Positions 50,240 through 59,133 of a DNA stretch of 64,000 nucleotides are shown here, piece after piece (position 1 is the first letter of the stretch; the number at the start of each line of letters is the position of its first letter). The notes beneath the pieces are model-generated. The model had not been told where the DNA came from. It worked only from the letters and a program-made list of their open reading frames with translations, and did no database searches. The stretch is taken from assembly GCA_002168075.1 (NCBI GenBank), contig NHCE01000010.1:270154-334153 (forward strand), given 5' to 3'. The DNA is from Rhizobiales bacterium TMED25. Lineage in GTDB: Bacteria; Pseudomonadota; Alphaproteobacteria; Rhizobiales; TMED25. A program made the translations under genes and the position numbers.

Positions 50240-50617
50240 ATGCAGAAATCAAATATTTTAACACTTACTCCAAAAGCAATAGAAAGAATAAGATATCTGG
50301 TCAACCAATCTTCAAGCCAAGATAATATACTTCGTGTTGGAATAGAGAAGGGGGGGTGTGCAGGTTTAACATACTCTATGGATTATATATCTGAAATAAA
50401 AGAAGGCGATGAGATTGTGGATCAAGATGATATAAAGGTTGTAGTAGATCCAAAGGCAATATTATATCTACTTGGTACCGAAATGGATTATGTTGAAGAT
50501 AAATTTAGTTCTGGTTTTAAATTTAATAATCCAAATGAGGTATCTGCATGTGGTTGCGGAGAATCAGTTGAAATAGTTCCATTGGACACTGTCACTGAAG
50601 TTTCAACAGCGAGTTAA
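50240..50617 (+). CDS. sufA: A-type Fe-S carrier SufA
   Basis: Carries Fe-S clusters from the SUF scaffold to target enzymes. The three cluster-binding cysteines are in GGCAGLTY and the C-terminal ACGCGE. It has 125 residues. It is the last gene of the SUF operon; its stop overlaps the phoB stop by 4 nt with no terminator visible. Confidence 0.94.
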   Translation: MQKSNILTLTPKAIERIRYLVNQSSSQDNILRVGIEKGGCAGLTYSMDYISEIKEGDEIVDQDDIKVVVDPKAILYLLGTEMDYVEDKFSSGFKFNNPNEVSACGCGESVEIVPLDTVTEVSTAS

Positions 50618-51300
50618 TCTTTTCTAATACAATATCCAAATCCATGGACTGTTTCTATTTTACAATTTCCATGATAATTTTCTTTGAATGTTTTTCTCAG
50701 CCGACTTACGTGAACGTCAACCGTCCTATCATCTATGTTTGGGTTGTTGTCCCAAACATAATCAATTATTTGTTCTCTTGAAAAAACATGCTCTGGTCTA
50801 CTCATTAGCATAGAAAGTATTTTATATTCAGTTTTACCAATTTTGATAATTTTATCAGCACTTTTTACATTTTTTTTATTAGTATCTATTAACAAATCAT
50901 CATATTCAATCATAGATGAGTTGATATTTGTGTTTGTTCTTCTTAGCAGTGCTTTTATCCTTGCCATTAATTCAATAGGTGAAAAGGGCTTTATGATATA
51001 GTCGTCGGCACCGGATGATAAGCCATGAGAAGTATCAATGTCTTCACCTCTTGCGCTTAATATTATAATTGGGAGATGTCTCAGCTCTTTAGATGACCGG
51101 ACACGTCTGCATACAGATATTCCGCTACCGTTAGGCATCATCCAGTCTAAAATTATTATATCGGGCCGACGTTCTGAAATTAATTCAAAAGCTATTTCAC
51201 CATCCTCAGCTTTTATTACATCGAAACCATTTTTTTCTAGGTGAAAAGATATTAGTTCTAATTGATTCTTTTCGTCGTCAGCTATTAATGCAAGGGTCAT
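50614..51300 (-). CDS. phoB: Phosphate regulon response regulator PhoB
   Basis: OmpR-family regulator activated by PhoR under phosphate limitation. The receiver domain has the acidic pocket (Asp8/Asp9), phospho-acceptor Asp52 in IILDWMMPNGSG, and KPFSP. The winged-helix domain follows (YKILSMLMSRPEHVFSREQIIDYVW ... DVHVSRLRKTF). It has 228 residues. It is last in pstC-pstA-pstB-phoU-phoB and so would itself be induced by phosphate starvation. Its likely targets are the 11-bp repeats upstream of pstS, pstC and arsC. Confidence 0.94.
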   Translation of the reverse strand: MTLALIADDEKNQLELISFHLEKNGFDVIKAEDGEIAFELISERRPDIIILDWMMPNGSGISVCRRVRSSKELRHLPIIILSARGEDIDTSHGLSSGADDYIIKPFSPIELMARIKALLRRTNTNINSSMIEYDDLLIDTNKKNVKSADKIIKIGKTEYKILSMLMSRPEHVFSREQIIDYVWDNNPNIDDRTVDVHVSRLRKTFKENYHGNCKIETVHGFGYCIRKD

Positions 51301-51307
51301 TGAAGCC

Positions 51308-51997
51308 TCAATATGTAGTCATTGCCTTTGGTCTTTTTGTATCCGGGTATTCCCCTTCGGTTAGAAAATATGTTTGCTTTGCGATACTTGTTGTGTAATC
51401 TCCAACTCTTTCAAGGTTCTTAGATATAAAAACCATATGAGTTAACATTTTAGCGTCGTCTGGATTATCTGACATGTAGCTGACAATCTCCTTAAAAATA
51501 CTAAGATATAGGCGATCTGTATCAATATCTGATTCCCATATAGTCATTGCCTTTTGTATATCATTTTCCATATATGCATCAAGGCTTTGACGAAGGAGTC
51601 CTTGTACGTGTTCCCCGAGTCCAACTATGTTAACGGGAAGCCTATCGAAGCTTTCTTCTGTTACGATGACTTGGCTGCGTCTTGCTATATTTTTTGAATA
51701 ATCTCCGACCCTCTCCAGGATAGCTCCCACTCTATCAGCAACCAACAGGCTTCTCAAATCATATGCTATCGGTGACCATAGCGCAATAAGTTCAAAAACT
51801 GAGGAGCTTACCTCTGCCGTTAACTCGTCTAGTTTCTTGTCGCGCTGTATAATAGAGTCAAATTTTTTTATATTCTTATCTTTCAAGGCAGTTATTGAAT
51901 TATCGAGTTGCGTCTCAGCGAGTGCTCCGAGCTTTACTATTTGCTTATTTACGTCAGCTAAGCCGTCATCAAATGCTGTATTAATATGTTGTGTCAT
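51308..51997 (-). CDS. phoU: Phosphate transport regulator PhoU
   Basis: Cytosolic helical protein that links Pst transporter state to PhoR and prevents phosphate over-accumulation. Two PhoU repeats are visible, each with the metal-binding pattern: RVGDYSKNIARRS and RVGDYTTSIAKQ. It has 229 residues. It lies 9 nt after pstB and 7 nt before phoB. Confidence 0.95.
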   Translation of the reverse strand: MTQHINTAFDDGLADVNKQIVKLGALAETQLDNSITALKDKNIKKFDSIIQRDKKLDELTAEVSSSVFELIALWSPIAYDLRSLLVADRVGAILERVGDYSKNIARRSQVIVTEESFDRLPVNIVGLGEHVQGLLRQSLDAYMENDIQKAMTIWESDIDTDRLYLSIFKEIVSYMSDNPDDAKMLTHMVFISKNLERVGDYTTSIAKQTYFLTEGEYPDTKRPKAMTTY

Positions 51998-52006
51998 ATC
52001 TATCTC

Positions 52007-52777
52007 CTATCCTATTCTACCAGAAATGTATGCTTCCGTCATTTCATGTTTTGGGTTTGTAAAAATATTTGAAGTTACACCAAATTCAATCATTTCGCCC
52101 AAATGAAAATATGCAGTTTTATCTGATATTCTTGCAGCTTGCTGCATTGAGTGTGTAACAATGACGATAGTATAGTTTTCTTTTAATTCGTTGATGAGTT
52201 CTTCAATAACGGCAGTTGCGATTGGATCCAATGCAGAGCATGGCTCATCCATAAGTATTATCTCCGGCTTTATAGCAATTGCTCTAGCAATGCACAATCT
52301 TTGTTGTTGGCCGCCGGATAGACCGGTCGCTATGTCGTCCAATCTATCTTTTACTTCAGAATATAAGCCAGCTCGGTTTAGAGTATCTTTTACAATATCA
52401 TCCAATTCCGTTTTTGTTGATGCAATACCATGAATTTTTGGTCCATAAGCAACATTTTCGTATATAGTCTTTGGAAAAGGATTAGGTTTTTGAAATACCA
52501 TACCAACCTGCTTACGAAGGTTCTCGACTTGAATTTCTGGGCCATAAATATCAATTCCATTTAGATGAAACTCACCTTGAACTTTGCAAATATCTATAAC
52601 ATCATTCATTCTATTCAAACATCTCAGAAATGTTGATTTTCCGCAGCCAGATGGGCCGATAAGAGATGTTACTTGATTTTTATGAAAATCAACAGCTACG
52701 TTGTTTATTGCCATTTTACTTCCATAATGCACGTATACATTATTAGTTTTTAAAGCAAGTGTGTCGTTTTCTACCAT
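52007..52777 (-). CDS. pstB: Phosphate ABC transporter ATPase PstB
   Basis: ATPase of the high-affinity phosphate transporter. Walker A is GPSGCGKST, the signature is [14 protein letters not shown], and Walker B is [13 protein letters not shown]. The ATG at MVENDTLAL is chosen because GGAGGT lies just before it; a longer open frame upstream reads into pstA and is unlikely. The result is 256 residues. The start overlaps the pstA stop by 7 nt. Confidence 0.97.
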
Positions 52778-54021
52778 TTTACCTCCAATTTTCTTCTTAT
52801 TATTACGGCAATTGTATTCATTGTTATTAAGAAACCTAGTAAGAGCATAATGCCAGCAGAAGTTTTTTCTAGAAAGCCTCTCTCGGCGCTCTCTGACCAA
52901 AGATAAATTTGGGATGGAAGCCCAGTTGCTGGATCGAGTGCTCCACCAGGAATATCCATTACAAAAGCAACCATGCCAACCATTAGCAATGGAGCGGTTT
53001 CACCAAGGGCTTGTGCCATTCCGATAATGGTACCAGTTAGAGATCCGGGCAAGGATAGGGGTATCACGTGATGAAAAACTGTTTGAGTTTTCGTTGCGCC
53101 AACAGCAAGAGCCGCCTCGCGGATTGATGGGGGCACACTTCTTAATGAGGCCCTTGATGCAATAATAATAGTTGGCAACGTCATAAATCCAAGCACAAGG
53201 CCACCAACAAGTGGCACCTGGTAGGGCATTCCAAACACTCCAATGAGCATACCCAATCCAAGGAGACCATAAACAATTGATGGCACAGCTGCCAAATTGT
53301 TAATATTAACCTCAATGAAGTCCGTCAACTTCCCTGGTCGTACGAATTCTTCCAAGTAAATTGATGCTAAAAGACCAACTGGGAATGCAAATGAAAAGCA
53401 TATCAAAAGAGCATAGAATGATCCCATTAAGGCGCCAAGGATACCAGCTGTTTCGGGATCTCTTGAATCACCATTTGTAAAAAACCATAGATTAAAAGTT
53501 GATGAAATTTTACCATCAGCATCTAGACTATCAAGCACAGATAATTGGTAATCATTGATTTTTCTCTGTGCCTCTGGGACATCTCTTGGGTAATTTCCTT
53601 TGACGATTTGATCTAAGTCTGACGAGGCAGTAATGTCCATTAGAATTGTCTTTCCAATTATATTGGGATCATTAGCTATATAGTCTCTTAACTGAAAGTC
53701 AAATTTACGTGTATACATTTCTCGCACCAAAATAAATTTTTCATCATTAAGATTGGGATGATTATCTTTGACAATTTGATCCGCAAGATTTACATAGGAT
53801 GTTTTTTTTATCGCTTTTATAGAGGACTCGTTAGTGACTTCAATAGTGTTGGGATCGAAATATACACTAGCTTCAATCGTCGTTCGAATGAAAGCTCCAC
53901 TTCCTGTTGTAAATATTTTCAACATAAGGATGACGACAAAAAATAGCGACAAACACATTGCGAACATAGCAATATATTTGAATCTTTTCTCAGCAGCTAG
54001 CCGTTTAGATAAATCAGTCAT
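52771..54021 (-). CDS. pstA: Phosphate ABC transporter permease PstA
   Basis: One of two membrane channel subunits of the phosphate transporter. The long N-terminal region with one helix and a periplasmic segment (about residues 1-190) is the DUF3333-type extension seen in alphaproteobacteria. The permease domain has the coupling motif [25 protein letters not shown]. The ATG at MTDLSKRL overlaps the pstC stop by 8 nt and gives 416 residues; an earlier start at 54063 is less likely. Confidence 0.94.
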
Positions 54022-55450
54022 ACTTCTCTCTGTACTTTTTAACAATAAGTATTGCGGCAACATTGAGTATTAGCGTCATAATAAATAGAGTCAGACCTAA
54101 AGCAAATGCGACTAGTGTTTTTGGATTATCAAATTCGACATCCCCAATGAGGCTTGTTACAATTTGTGTTGTTATTGTTGTGGCTGGCTCTAAGGGATTA
54201 AATGTCAGATTTGCACGAAGGCTTGCTGCCATCACAACGATCATTGTTTCACCAATTGCTCGAGAAATTGCTAATAAAAATGATCCCATGATTCCAGCTA
54301 GTGCCGCAGGCAGAACTACTTTTTTTATGGTTTCTGATTTTGTGGCCCCTAAGGCATAAGCACCATCTCTTAGTGAGTTTGGCACTGCCTTAATAACGTC
54401 GTCACTTAAAGAAGACACAAATGGTATAATCATGACCCCCATCGCGAGACCAGCTGCTAGAGCACTTTCTGCTGAAACAGGCAAACCAACGCTTTCACCA
54501 ACATCTTTAATAAAGGGTGCCAGTGACAATGCAGCAAAAAATCCATAGACCACGGTTGGTATACCAGCTAATATTTCAATGATTGGTTTTGCAATGTTCC
54601 GCACCCTAGTAGATGCGTATTCAGCTAGATATATAGCGGTCAGGAGCCCAAGAGGTATTGCCACAATCATTGCAACAGTAGCAATCAAAATTGTGCCTGT
54701 CAGGAGTGGGACAAATCCGAAGGCATCTTTTAAAGCCTCTTGATCAAATCCTTCTGTAGCATTAATCACAAAAGCTCTATTTGGATTCCATGAAGTATTA
54801 AAGAAAAAATCTATAAAATTTACGTATCTAAAAAAATTTATAGCTTCAAATATAAGTGAGAAAAATATCCCAAATGTTATTAATATAGCTATGTAGGAGC
54901 TACCTTTTATTACGTAGGAGATTACGCGTTCCACAATAGGTTGCGCGTTAAGTTTAGTTGAAATCATTCTCGTTGCAATGAAGCCTAGAAGAACAGGTAG
55001 TATAATGAATAAAGTAATATTGGCCCAACCATATATTTTATCAAAACCCGCTAGATTCTTTGCTGCAATGAGCTCACTCTCACTTGCCATTTTTAAAATT
55101 GATTTATCCCCAACAGACAGATCAATTTCCGGTAAGTTTACAACATGTGATAAGTTCGTAACTTTATTCATTATTAAACCGGTTTTACTCGCGCTCCACA
55201 TTTCAATATCAGGGAACAACAAGGGTGACATTACAAATATTTCCTGGAAATTTGATTTAAAGATTAAGAGGAAGAACCAAATCAAAATGGCTGGTATTAG
55301 TATTATGATTACCGTATAATAACCATAATAATCAGGAAGAGCTGTGAGGGTTTGTTTTTGCTGTATTGTAAGGTTGAGTGCTCTTTTCTTGCCAATAAAA
55401 TAAAAAAAATAAGAAAGCAAAAATACAAGTAGAAGTGATACATAGACCAT
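54014..55450 (-). CDS. pstC: Phosphate ABC transporter permease PstC
   Basis: Second channel subunit. An N-terminal extension with two or more helices (to about residue 170) precedes the core permease, whose coupling motif is RDGAYALGATKSETIKKVVLPAALAG. It has 478 residues, as in the alphaproteobacterial long form. A Pho-box-like repeat lies 61-78 nt upstream, so pstC-pstA-pstB-phoU-phoB may have a promoter separate from pstS. An AAGGAG site lies about 8 nt before the ATG. Confidence 0.94.
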   Translation of the reverse strand: MVYVSLLLVFLLSYFFYFIGKKRALNLTIQQKQTLTALPDYYGYYTVIIILIPAILIWFFLLIFKSNFQEIFVMSPLLFPDIEMWSASKTGLIMNKVTNLSHVVNLPEIDLSVGDKSILKMASESELIAAKNLAGFDKIYGWANITLFIILPVLLGFIATRMISTKLNAQPIVERVISYVIKGSSYIAILITFGIFFSLIFEAINFFRYVNFIDFFFNTSWNPNRAFVINATEGFDQEALKDAFGFVPLLTGTILIATVAMIVAIPLGLLTAIYLAEYASTRVRNIAKPIIEILAGIPTVVYGFFAALSLAPFIKDVGESVGLPVSAESALAAGLAMGVMIIPFVSSLSDDVIKAVPNSLRDGAYALGATKSETIKKVVLPAALAGIMGSFLLAISRAIGETMIVVMAASLRANLTFNPLEPATTITTQIVTSLIGDVEFDNPKTLVAFALGLTLFIMTLILNVAAILIVKKYREKYD

Positions 55451-55510
55451 TCTTTATGCTCCTTACCTTAATTGTTTTAAAAAATATAAATTAACTATTG
55501 TGAAAAAAAT

Positions 55511-55528
55511 ATTACAAAAATATTACAA
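55511..55528 (-). promoter_or_regulatory. Candidate Pho box upstream of pstC
   Basis: On the reverse strand the site reads TTGTAATATTTTTGTAAT: two 7-bp TTGTAAT half-sites separated by 4 bp, an 11-bp period as in the classic Pho box (CTGTCAT-N4-CTGTCAT). The sequence CACAATA begins 8 nt after the second half-site, exactly as upstream of pstS. The position and match to the pstS and arsC copies support PhoB binding. Confidence 0.75.
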
Positions 55529-55581
55529 AGTTAGTTTTTTAAGTAGTAAATTAACTATTTTAAGTTATGTGATATTAGATG

Positions 55582-55610
55582 TAGAAAGAGGGGCTATGCC
55601 CCTCTTTCTA
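55582..55610 (-). terminator. Strong 13-bp hairpin between pstS and pstC
   Basis: A perfect inverted repeat, TAGAAAGAGGGGC - 3-nt loop - GCCCCTCTTTCTA, located 10 nt after the pstS stop codon. No T-run follows on either strand, so it is less a classic intrinsic terminator than a partial terminator or 3' stabiliser. That is the usual way to make far more binding protein (PstS) than transporter subunits from one locus. Confidence 0.8.
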
Positions 55611-55619
55611 TCTAGGTCT

Positions 55620-56702
55620 TTATTTGCAAAGTCCGCTTGAAAATGCATAACCTGCATCTTTTAGAGGATGAGCTTTGCTCGCACAGTCAGCAATATCAAA
55701 ACCCATTGGGTCTAAGTTATCAGTGATATTCCTAACTCTATCAATAAGCTCTGGTACCATAGGCGCTGCACCTATCTTTGTTAGATAACCATTATCTCCA
55801 ATCGCATTATTACTTACCATCATTTGTGCAAATTCCTGAATGCCAGGTATAACACCAATATGGTCAGCTTTTAGGTATATAAAGAGTGGCCTTGCCATTG
55901 GATATTCATATGTAGCAATTGTAGAAGCTGATGGCACTACGCCTTCAACTGTGGACGGCTGAAGTTTATCTCCGTTATCCTTGAGGTAAGAGTAACCAAA
56001 GTAACCAAAACGTTGGGGATCTTCGACAAGTTTTTGAACAATTAATGTGTCGTTTTCACCCATTTCAATGATGCGTCCATCTTCACGGTAGTCTGTACAG
56101 CCATCATCACTACCTGTAACCGCTTCAAGTGTACATCCAGCTTCCATGACTTTACCATCGAATGCATCTCTTGTACCTGAGGTTGGTGGTGCAACTAACA
56201 CCTCGATTTTATAATCTGGAAGACTTGAGTTTATCTGATTCCATGATGTATATGGATTTTCTACAACTTCACCATCTACGACAACTTTTGCAGCCATAGC
56301 TGTGAATATCTCTTCTCTTGTGAGCTCAAATTCTTCAGCTTCATTTGAGTGTGAGAATGTAATACCATCATTTGCCCACATAACCTCGATTACGTTTGTC
56401 ACGCCATTTTCTAAACAAAGCTTAGCCTCTTTTGATTTCATTGGGCGTGATGCTCCAGTAATATCAGGAAAGCCAACTCCTACGCCTGCGCAGAATGATT
56501 TCATTCCACCACCGGTGCCGATTGGGTTATATGTTGGTGTATTAAAGCCTGACTCACCTAATCTTTGGGCGTTTACAGTGCCGTATGGATAAACTGTTGA
56601 TGAACCAACAATGTTTATTTGATCTCGTGCCTGTACTTCCATTGAAGGGGCTAACATAAATGAAGCTAAAGCAGCGAGAACAAGAGTGGATAGTTTTCTC
56701 AT
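55620..56702 (-). CDS. pstS: Periplasmic phosphate-binding protein PstS
   Basis: Captures phosphate in the periplasm for PstCAB. A signal peptide (about residues 1-26, ending VQA) precedes INIVGSSTVYPYG, the phosphate-site motif, and later PPTSGTRDAF. Conserved Cys pairs (SFCAGVG, AKLCLENG, EAGCTLEA, DGCTDY) suggest disulfides. It has 360 residues. It carries its own candidate Pho box and is followed by a strong hairpin. Confidence 0.95.
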   Translation of the reverse strand: MRKLSTLVLAALASFMLAPSMEVQARDQINIVGSSTVYPYGTVNAQRLGESGFNTPTYNPIGTGGGMKSFCAGVGVGFPDITGASRPMKSKEAKLCLENGVTNVIEVMWANDGITFSHSNEAEEFELTREEIFTAMAAKVVVDGEVVENPYTSWNQINSSLPDYKIEVLVAPPTSGTRDAFDGKVMEAGCTLEAVTGSDDGCTDYREDGRIIEMGENDTLIVQKLVEDPQRFGYFGYSYLKDNGDKLQPSTVEGVVPSASTIATYEYPMARPLFIYLKADHIGVIPGIQEFAQMMVSNNAIGDNGYLTKIGAAPMVPELIDRVRNITDNLDPMGFDIADCASKAHPLKDAGYAFSSGLCK

Positions 56703-56792
56703 AGTGTTTCTCCGTTTGGGTTTAATTAAAAAAATACGCTCTGCGCATACTTGTCTTATGATTTATAAATTTTTCATTATTGTGTCATTTAT

Positions 56793-56810
56793 ATTACAAA
56801 AAAATTACAA
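56793..56810 (-). promoter_or_regulatory. Candidate Pho box upstream of pstS
   Basis: The reverse strand reads TTGTAATTTTTTTGTAAT: half-sites TTGTAAT with a TTTT spacer, 11-bp period. CACAATA begins 8 nt downstream of the second half-site, as in the pstC copy, and a TAATGA-like -10 lies 13 nt downstream. It is 91-108 nt before the pstS ATG, only about 40 nt after the aquaporin stop. Confidence 0.8.
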
Positions 56811-56852: not shown

Positions 56853-57512
56853 TTATTTTTTATAAACGGCGTTATGAATAATTAGGGCCAATAGCGCACC
56901 AAAAGACTGTGCAATTATAAAATATATAGTTCCTGAATAATGAATCCCAGAAAAAGTATCCGTGAATGTTCTTGCAATTGTTACTGCGGGATTTGCAAAA
57001 GATGTTGAAGCCGTAAACCAGTAAGCAGCAGTAATATAAAGGCCTACCGAGATAGCGACCGATTTTTGATTTTCTTTAATTGTAAATAAGATGGTCAATA
57101 TCAACCCAAATGCGGCGATAAATTCTGAAAACCACAGCGAAGGTCCAATCCTAATTTGTGATGAGTACTGTAACAAATCGGTATCAAACATAAAGTGGGC
57201 AATTAGCATACCAAATAGTCCACCAAGCACTTGTGCGAATATATATAAAATGAATATATTAAAATCAATTTCCTTCTTGATGAGAAATACTAGTGATACG
57301 ACGGGATTAAAATGGGCGCCAGAGATGGATCCAAACATTGTGATTAATACATAGAGTATTGCGCCCGTTGCAATCGTATTTGCTAAAAGTGCAATTGCAT
57401 CATTTCCTTCAGATAGCATCTCTCCCATTATACCTGAGCCAATCACGGTGGCCAATAAGATTGCTGTGCCTAAAAATTCAATAAAATATTTTTTAAAATT
57501 TTGTACTATCAT
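56853..57512 (-). CDS. Aquaporin / aquaglyceroporin (MIP family, AqpS-like)
   Basis: Six-helix channel with two pore loops: GAHFNPV (NPV at residues 69-71) and SFANPAVTIAR (NPA at 174-176, with the selectivity Arg181). The first box being NPV rather than NPA is a non-canonical pore. In Sinorhizobium the ArsC/AqpS pair reduces arsenate and releases arsenite through the channel. Here the gene starts 6 nt after an arsC-type gene, so the same role is inferred. At 219 residues it is standard for MIP proteins. Confidence 0.88.
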   Translation of the reverse strand: MIVQNFKKYFIEFLGTAILLATVIGSGIMGEMLSEGNDAIALLANTIATGAILYVLITMFGSISGAHFNPVVSLVFLIKKEIDFNIFILYIFAQVLGGLFGMLIAHFMFDTDLLQYSSQIRIGPSLWFSEFIAAFGLILTILFTIKENQKSVAISVGLYITAAYWFTASTSFANPAVTIARTFTDTFSGIHYSGTIYFIIAQSFGALLALIIHNAVYKK

Positions 57513-57518
57513 TTTTAT

Positions 57519-58022
57519 CTACCGTATCGCAATCGCAATATTTTGCAAAACATCTTTAGTTACTTTGTTATTAATATTATCCGACAGACTAATAAATTTT
57601 TTTATTCGTTTTTCAAAAACTAAATATGTATCAAGGAACGCCTGATATTTTACTTCTTCACTACCAGCCACCAGAGATGGGTCAGTCACTCCCCAATGTG
57701 CACTTATTGGTTTTCCTGGCCAAACGGGGCATACTTCACCTGCCGCGTTATCGCATACAGTAATTATAAAATCCATGTGGGGCGCAGATGCATATTGATC
57801 CCAGCTTTTAGAGCTTAAGCAACTGACGTCGTGGCCTTTGCTTTCAAGCATTAAAATGCTCATGGGATTTACAAACCCAACTGGTGATGAACCCGCAGAA
57901 TAGCCACGAAATATATCTTTTCCTATTTTATTCATTATCGATTCAGCAATTATTGATCGACATGAGTTTCCGGTACACAAAAATAAACAGTTCAAAATTC
58001 TCAATTTAAGTAATCCATTCAA
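57519..58022 (-). CDS. arsC: Thioredoxin-coupled arsenate reductase (ArsC, LMW phosphatase fold)
   Basis: Reduces arsenate to arsenite. The phosphate-binding loop is C16-T-G-N-S-C-R22, and the two further redox cysteines are Cys90 and Cys98 in TVCDNAAGEVCPVWPG, the three-cysteine set of thioredoxin-type ArsC. SAHWGVTDPS is also diagnostic. The start is uncertain: this TTG has no ribosome-binding site, while a TTG at 57995 gives MNCLFLCTGNS, closer to the family start. It lies under a Pho-box-like repeat and is followed at once by an aquaporin. Confidence 0.87.
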   Translation of the reverse strand: MNGLLKLRILNCLFLCTGNSCRSIIAESIMNKIGKDIFRGYSAGSSPVGFVNPMSILMLESKGHDVSCLSSKSWDQYASAPHMDFIITVCDNAAGEVCPVWPGKPISAHWGVTDPSLVAGSEEVKYQAFLDTYLVFEKRIKKFISLSDNINNKVTKDVLQNIAIAIR

Positions 58023-58086
58023 ATAATCAAAGTTTGTTCGTAATGATCTAGTTACTAAAAAGTTTTAATAATACTGTTTTGTGAAT

Positions 58087-58104
58087 ATTGCAAAAACATT
58101 ACAA
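58087..58104 (-). promoter_or_regulatory. Candidate Pho box upstream of arsC-aquaporin
   Basis: The reverse strand reads TTGTAATGTTTTTGCAAT: the first half-site matches the pst copies exactly and the second has one change (TTGCAAT). The 11-bp period is the same, and a TATTAT -10-like hexamer lies 13 nt downstream. It is 65-82 nt before the arsC TTG and 12 nt beyond the phoR stop, the right place for a promoter of the arsC-aquaporin pair. Confidence 0.7.
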
Positions 58105-58116
58105 TTGCATATTCAT

Positions 58117-59133
58117 TCAACAATCAATAGGGAAGAGAACGGTAAATCTTGTCTTGCCGTTTACCTGACTTGATACCTCTAAATCTGCTGAATGCCTTAA
58201 TAATATATGTTTGACTATAGCAAGGCCAAGCCCAGTACCCCCGACGTTTCGAGATCGGGCTTTGTCAACACGATAAAACCTTTCAGTGAGCCTTGGGAGA
58301 TGCTCTTCACTTATCCCTCTACCGTTATTTTCAACTGTAATACTCATTTGCTTTGAATCTGTATCATCGGTCATCTCTATAATTATCTTTATTGTACTGT
58401 TTTCAATTGAATATTTAATGGCATTATCAATAAGATTATGGAATACCTCAACGATTTGGTCTGCGTCTGCCTTGATCTCTGGAATTGTATCGAATTTTTG
58501 GTCCACAATTATTTTTTTACCAAGTTCTTTTGCCCTTAACTCAAGTGCATTTTTTGCAAGCAGAATTTGTTCTATAATATTTATTTTATTCTGGGGTTCG
58601 ATAAATTCATTAATTTCTATTTTTGAGAGCGATAACAAGTCTGATATTATTCTATTCATACGATTTGCTTCTTCTTCCATTATTTGAAGGAAACGAAGTT
58701 CTTTCTGCCTTTCTATTTTATCATTTTTAAGCGTTTCAATGAATCCAGCAATAGCGGTTAGGGGAGATCTTAATTCATGGCTAACATTCGCGATTAAGTC
58801 ACGTCTAATATTATAGAAATTTTCTTCTTCTGTCTGATCGTTGATTACAATTATACCTGGGTAGTCTACTTTCTGAGTATATGTAAGCTGAAGTGAATGT
58901 GAGCCGATGCTTGAAGAGTAGGGAAATGAGATATTTATATCAATTGACTCATTAATAGCATCTATTACTTCACTATTTCTTATTAGATTATATATTGGTT
59001 TACCGAATATTTTATCCCCAAAATATTCAATAGCAATTTTATTGGCATGTAAAATATCATATTCGGAAGATACAATAATGACACCTTCACCTAATTGTTC
59101 CAGTAATGTTATAAACTCTTTATCACCAAGCAT
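58117..59133 (-). CDS. phoR: Phosphate-sensing histidine kinase PhoR, lacking membrane segments
   Basis: Two-component kinase partner of PhoB. A PAS domain starts at residue 5 (LLEQLGEGVIIVSSEYDILHANKIA), followed by HisKA with His119 in NVSHELRSPLTAI and the ATPase domain with N-box FHNLIDNAIKYS and G-boxes NGRGI and GGTGLGLAI. It has 338 residues. Most PhoR proteins have a membrane helix before PAS; here there is none, and only 29 nt separate the start from parE. It must be soluble or recruited through PhoU/PstB. Confidence 0.9.
   Translation of the reverse strand: MLGDKEFITLLEQLGEGVIIVSSEYDILHANKIAIEYFGDKIFGKPIYNLIRNSEVIDAINESIDINISFPYSSSIGSHSLQLTYTQKVDYPGIIVINDQTEEENFYNIRRDLIANVSHELRSPLTAIAGFIETLKNDKIERQKELRFLQIMEEEANRMNRIISDLLSLSKIEINEFIEPQNKINIIEQILLAKNALELRAKELGKKIIVDQKFDTIPEIKADADQIVEVFHNLIDNAIKYSIENSTIKIIIEMTDDTDSKQMSITVENNGRGISEEHLPRLTERFYRVDKARSRNVGGTGLGLAIVKHILLRHSADLEVSSQVNGKTRFTVLFPIDC

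Follow-up and report, generated by a model that had tools for sequence, protein, structure and literature searches.

A closely related system is found in SAR11, in which a pair of LMWPc_ArsC and AqpS genes is reported to represent the only arsenic-related genes (PMC6426599). The same study reports that arsC of Pelagibacter HTCC7211 (1a.3 ecotype) was upregulated 2.3-fold in phosphate starvation and showed no induction by DMA, that HTCC7211 tolerated arsenate better than HTCC1062, which has no arsC gene, that the abundance of SAR11 ArsC in the TARA data follows low phosphate, and that SAR11 obtains ATP from DMA and MMA (PMC6426599). The idea of a pair linked to phosphate starvation is therefore not wholly new, being partly known from the mild induction in HTCC7211. 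Sinorhizobium meliloti carries the operon arsR-aqpS-arsC-arsH, in which ArsC is annotated as glutaredoxin type. Arsenic islands (aio-ars-pst/phn) have been described in arsenite oxidizers, namely Agrobacterium tumefaciens 5A and Halomonas HAL1 (PMC3834237, PMC7965956, PMC4563254), and in A. tumefaciens 5A, ArsR1 represses pstS1/phoB1 (PMC3834237, PMC7965956). Such islands have ars operons with arsR and an arsenite oxidase, and another copy of pst is usually present elsewhere. Eighteen MIPs have been found in ars operons (PMC4435449). Among open-access papers, we found no report of Pho boxes or pst linkage of arsC-aqp pairs lacking ArsR.

Herein, we analyzed a stretch of 64,000 nucleotides (the window) from Rhizobiales bacterium TMED25, an alphaproteobacterium with a small genome that is probably marine, judged in part by its genome size. 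The gene order at the locus was glnB-glnA-parE-phoR-[arsC-aqp]-pstSCAB-phoU-phoB, with the following features.

50614..51300, minus strand: phoB, response regulator and predicted Pho-box binder (comparison with the loci of relatives)
51308..51997, minus strand: phoU (comparison with the loci of relatives)
52007..52900, minus strand: pstB (ORF as listed; the true start is probably further in, with 256 aa in G290)
52771..54063, minus strand: pstA (ORF as listed; overlaps the adjoining genes)
54014..55450, minus strand: pstC (ORF list, loci of relatives and tree)
55510..55527, minus strand: Pho box before pstC, inside the pstS-pstC spacer (pattern match; 25.6 bits)
55620..56702, minus strand: pstS, phosphate-binding protein from a horizontally acquired lineage (PF12849; in the tree with G327, of another family)
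56792..56809, minus strand: Pho box before pstS (pattern match; 20.6 bits)
56853..57512, minus strand: aqp, AqpS-type aquaglyceroporin (PF00230; NPV/NPA motifs; filter T49/A162/S171/V177)
57519..58022, minus strand: arsC, LMWP/thioredoxin-type arsenate reductase (PF01451, TIGR02691 and a PDB match to Bacillus subtilis ArsC)
58068..58073, minus strand: -10-like TATTAT, 13 nt past the second Pho 7-mer of the arsC box (sequence)
58087..58104, minus strand: Pho box before arsC, TTGTAATGTTTTTGCAAT, with its two 7-mers spaced 11 nt apart (pattern match; 19.8 bits)
58117..59133, minus strand: phoR, phosphate-regulon sensor kinase of 338 aa (TIGR02966 phoR_proteo, 1.5e-84, under the model cut-off)

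The arsC and aqp genes are separated by 6 nt on the minus strand and flanked by phoR and pstS. Coordinates and Pfam matches thus bear out the initial annotation, which had placed an arsC-type gene and an aquaglyceroporin gene 6 nt apart in the phoR-pstS interval. The other genes identified at the locus were pho/pst, glnA/glnB and parE, and only one pstS copy was found in this genome. In the relatives whose locus was compared, phoR was syntenic, and their PhoR lengths of 332-341 aa were near the 338 aa here. PhoR begins approximately 30 nt past parE, and no obvious transmembrane segment was visible in it by eye (58117-59133).

The locus resembles that of SAR11 HTCC7211 in that the two gene types are the same, in the order arsC and then the aquaporin. 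It differs in that the pair is embedded in the pst operon, with three Pho boxes, in a bacterium of another taxonomic order, whereas the available portion of the HTCC7211 report mentions neither Pho boxes nor pst adjacency (PMC6426599). Like S. meliloti, it has an AqpS homologue as the presumed arsenite route instead of ArsB or Acr3; the S. meliloti operon, however, has ArsR, ArsH and an ArsC annotated as glutaredoxin type, with no indication of phosphate control. As in the arsenic islands, where PhoB influences the aio genes, arsenic and phosphate genes are coupled physically and, by prediction here, in regulation. Unlike the islands, arsR is absent, one pstS was found, and the predicted control runs only from phosphate to arsenic.

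The arsC product matched the LMWPc family (PF01451) with 54 bits, and its best NCBIfam match was the thioredoxin-type ArsC model TIGR02691, which was full-length (4.2e-22) but below the curated cut-off (78.8 versus 174.3 bits). By these matches, the protein is placed in the wider LMWPc ArsC group, outside the narrow TIGR02691 equivalog. Its closest solved structures include B. subtilis ArsC, to which it was aligned. With the ORF numbered from 58022, the redox cysteines are C16, C90 and C98, the P-loop is C16-TGNSC-R22 (CX5R), and Asp114 is present; of the two possible TTG starts, the one at 58004 may be used in place of that at 58022. C16, R22, C90, C98 and D114 were near-invariant in an alignment of 102 homologues, so the three redox cysteines read from the sequence in the initial annotation were confirmed. 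It is the only LMWPc protein in the genome. Family membership suggests that this ArsC reduces arsenate.

The aqp product matched MIP (PF00230) with 84 bits, and its nearest NCBIfam model was a MIP subfamily, under the strict cut-off of that model. The channel has NPV and NPA loops, and V177 replaces the usual selectivity Arg. The filter set T49/A162/S171/V177 dominates the alignment of 188 channel members. No second MIP channel was found in the genome. This channel shares 53% identity and its filter residues with the annotated AqpS of S. meliloti, and from its family it would be expected to let arsenite out. The parallel drawn earlier with Sinorhizobium, in which ArsC reduces arsenate and AqpS releases arsenite, is thus valid for the channel and invalid for the reductase, since ArsC is annotated as glutaredoxin type there and is of the LMWP type here. 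Because the channel is passive, it would be useful only when arsenite is higher inside than outside. Passive exit of arsenite would be workable where outside arsenite is low, for example, in open seawater.

Searching the 1.42-Mb assembly for TGYAAYNTTTTTGYAAYA at a tolerance of one mismatch gave exactly three matches, located before arsC, pstS and pstC, whereas the reversed control of the pattern gave none in the whole genome. With a matrix trained on the pst promoters of relatives, the best site in the window outside the three boxes scored 13.8 bits, and 20 mononucleotide shuffles gave top scores of 9.6-17.4 bits versus 19.8 bits for the arsC box. The Pho-box-like repeat noted earlier before arsC was thus confirmed; it is the weakest of the three, with one weakened position (TGCAAT). 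The spacing between this box and TATTAT would be as expected for a PhoB-activated promoter. By its tandem Pho box, arsC is a predicted member of the Pho regulon.

No match to PF01022 or PF12840 was found in the whole assembly, while both searches were positive in all 14 control genomes. The absence of arsR noted earlier for the locus thus extends to the entire assembly, in which an arsR elsewhere, named at the outset as a result that would speak against phosphate control, was looked for with the same two profiles. Acr3 and ArsB were likewise not found in searches of the assembly. Having no arsR, the locus does not qualify as an ArsR-controlled ars operon. The assembly has a completeness of 98.22% and a contamination of 5.35%; the arrangement is common to two other assemblies, which argues against a chimera.

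Among 14 genomes of the family, five carry arsC and aqp and nine do not. In G000, G054 and G290 the pair lies between phoR and pstS, and G054 and G290, two genomes of the same genus, agree in this gene arrangement and each have a Pho box, TTGTAATGTTTTTGTAAT, before arsC. In G275 and G241, the pair is away from pst, downstream of an impB/mucB-type gene, and the arsC box is weak (4.9 bits by the genus matrix in G241; general score of 20.5 of 23, p = 0.015, in G275). Relatives without the insert have repeats such as TTGTAATATTTTTGTAATATTTACGTAAC in the same genus and TTGTCACATTTTTGTCACATTTTTGTCAC in the sister genus, located in the spacer after phoR and before pstS. The same position after phoR is occupied here by TTGTAATGTTTTTGCAAT before arsC, and pstS and pstC have boxes of their own.

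The history of the transporter genes was read from trees. PstS of all five carriers grouped with that of G327, from another family (100/100), as did PstC of the four carriers with sequence available (100/100). The PstS of the carriers was approximately 42-45% identical to, and apart in the tree from, PstS of the same genus, whereas PhoU and PhoB followed the species, suggesting that the transporter genes were probably replaced in place by horizontal transfer within a conserved regulatory frame. Within 52771-56702, pstS and pstC, and pstA by identity, appeared foreign to the genus, and phoR, phoU and phoB appeared native. A single donor for pst and arsC-aqp was considered and rejected: PstS of G327 is 80% identical to that of this genome but its channel only 43%, so the pair came separately and the sources probably differ. 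G201, of the same family, has two pstS-pstC loci (L138/L139), and the matched pstS of one of them contains a TGA.

We then surveyed AqpS-type loci in 385 Alphaproteobacteria genomes, 105 of which had a homologue at E<=1e-30; 104 loci were read. In 54 of them, arsR was within 2.5 kb. An automatic rule (pst/pho genes within 5 kb) found nine linked loci, of which G367 was left out as doubtful because its pst genes scored low and arsR was near, leaving the following eight.

G327: pstSCAB-phoU-phoB-arsC, with aqp convergent
G394 and G668: arsC-aqp-phoR facing phoB-phoU-pst
G591: arsC-aqp beside phoB
G613 (L190): arsC-pstS-porin O/P-pstC-pstA-pstB-aqp, in operon-like order
G503: phoR-aqp-pstSCAB-phoU
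G674: pst-phoU-phoB, two genes, then arsC-aqp
G457: a looser pst/pho neighbor, approximately 3 kb off

By the automatic rule, linkage was present in 6/17 genomes below 2.15 Mb versus 3/87 larger ones, and none of the 17 small genomes had arsR alongside the AqpS-type locus. SAR11-like streamlined genomes of the sample were among those with pst/pho linkage of the pair. In the channel tree, linkage required seven changes, at least five of them on strongly supported branches, the exact count being limited by a quick tree with skewed compositions; recurrence of the linkage is thus likely, and a single origin of the linked channels was unsupported. The survey proposed in the initial annotation has therefore located such loci in eight of 104 cases (one more doubtful), on several branches. 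The arsenate genes of G613 lie on either side of a phosphate transporter that has a phosphate-selective porin of its own. In L071 (Gammaproteobacteria MAG WB9_4_034), arsR-arsC-aqp is convergent with phoU-pstBACS, so that pst linkage occurs with arsR kept. A large neighbor gene (594-627 aa, five loci) was tried as a Na/Pi symporter and rejected, as Pfam identified solute-binding proteins, BipA and a succinate-dehydrogenase-type flavoprotein.

Considering that the genus-trained matrix proved too specific for distantly related genomes, a general 11-nt-repeat score was adopted, with random segments from the same locus as controls (strong site, p <= 0.02). Strong upstream Pho-box-like repeats were present at 16/47 loci without arsR versus 4/57 with arsR (Fisher p = 0.0005), under arsR calling slightly laxer than the 2.5-kb rule that gave 54. 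A replicate set of 79 near-relative loci (78 usable), scored separately and possibly overlapping the class sample in organisms, gave 6/34 versus 0/44 (p = 0.005). Related genomes count as independent in these comparisons, and the arsR calls come from a profile built for this analysis. The opposite strand of the same loci gave no comparable signal. Strong sites approximately 40-60 nt before arsC were also found at unlinked loci in G565 (TTGTAATATTTCTGTAAT), G315 (ATGTCACAAAACTGTCAT) and Amylibacter sp. SFDW26 (CTGTCATAAAACTGTTAT), and the arsC spacers of G394 and G668 (TTTAACAAAACTGTAAC or close) were similar to the pstS spacer of G668 (TTGTAACAAAACTTTAAC).

With a probability of roughly 0.84, we consider arsC and aqp to be PhoB-regulon members that together make up a module for arsenate detoxification, blind to arsenic itself and synchronized with high-affinity phosphate uptake. 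Under low phosphate, PhoR would phosphorylate PhoB, which is predicted to bind the boxes before arsC, pstS and pstC, and high-affinity Pst would be made together with ArsC and the channel. ArsC, judged by its family, would reduce the arsenate admitted by Pst, and uncharged arsenite would diffuse out down its gradient through the AqpS-type channel. As there is no ArsR to sense arsenic, phosphate scarcity would serve as a proxy for arsenate exposure, a suitable cue given that this is when arsenate enters through Pst. The module would have joined a phosphate operon whose transporter genes were also replaced by horizontal transfer. The same interpretation had been offered from the initial reading of the sequence, and every part of it that sequence comparison could address came out in its favor.

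Two other explanations concern function. The pair could be Pho-regulated and serve phosphate metabolism, the LMWP protein being a phosphatase and the channel carrying glycerol or water, for example, in phospholipid replacement during phosphate starvation; LMWPc is also a protein-phosphatase family, MIP channels carry glycerol, and the pair sits inside the pst operon. This is quite unlikely, given that all three cysteines of thioredoxin-type ArsC are conserved, that the channel is an AqpS-type protein with the S. meliloti identity and filter residues described above, and that about half of its relatives adjoin arsR. A channel used mainly for methylated arsenicals from phytoplankton, in or out, with ArsC as a side activity in a SAR11-like arsenic cycle, would fit the gain of ATP from DMA/MMA by SAR11, which has the same pair (PMC6426599), and the small non-aromatic filter residues would probably admit bulky arsenicals. 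We hold it to be very unlikely, since HTCC7211 arsC was induced by phosphate starvation and not by DMA (PMC6426599).

Two further possibilities concern control. In relatives that lack the insert, the pstS box occupies the position held here by the arsC box, and chance alone could have brought the insert in downstream of it; the pair would then depend on read-through from phoR/pst, with the box a leftover of the ancestral pstS promoter and no selected arsenic function. Similar linkage in other families, on separate tree branches, and the strong Pho-box-like sites of the unlinked arsR-less loci in G565, G315 and Amylibacter sp. SFDW26 make such parking highly improbable. That an ArsR-type repressor encoded elsewhere controls the pair is scarcely credible, because neither ArsR profile matched though both were positive in 14/14 control genomes; on the other side, a gene could be missing from an assembly that is 98.22% complete, and arsenic sensors other than ArsR exist.

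Beyond the detoxification module favored for this locus, we lean, with some reserve, toward regarding ArsR-less, phosphate-starvation-controlled arsC-aqpS modules as a class that is widespread in Alphaproteobacteria and has evolved repeatedly, in which PhoB control has taken the place of arsenic sensing and nutrient scarcity, not the toxin, turns on arsenate defense; as part of that reading, the present locus would rank among the clearest examples, its pair having entered a pst operon that was itself horizontally replaced. If so, cells in low-phosphate water would pay for arsenate defense within phosphate scavenging, with arsenic unmeasured, and arsenite release by bacterioplankton would track phosphate status, which bears on the use of arsenite as a marker of phosphate limitation. 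A testable rule follows: where ArsR is present, control would be by arsenic, and where ArsR is absent and a Pho box is present, control would be by phosphate.

The pstS-pstC spacer also contains, at 55540-55625, a hairpin of high stability (-26.9 kcal/mol, z -6.8). This hairpin lies just upstream of the Pho box of pstC and could set the pstS:pstC expression ratio.
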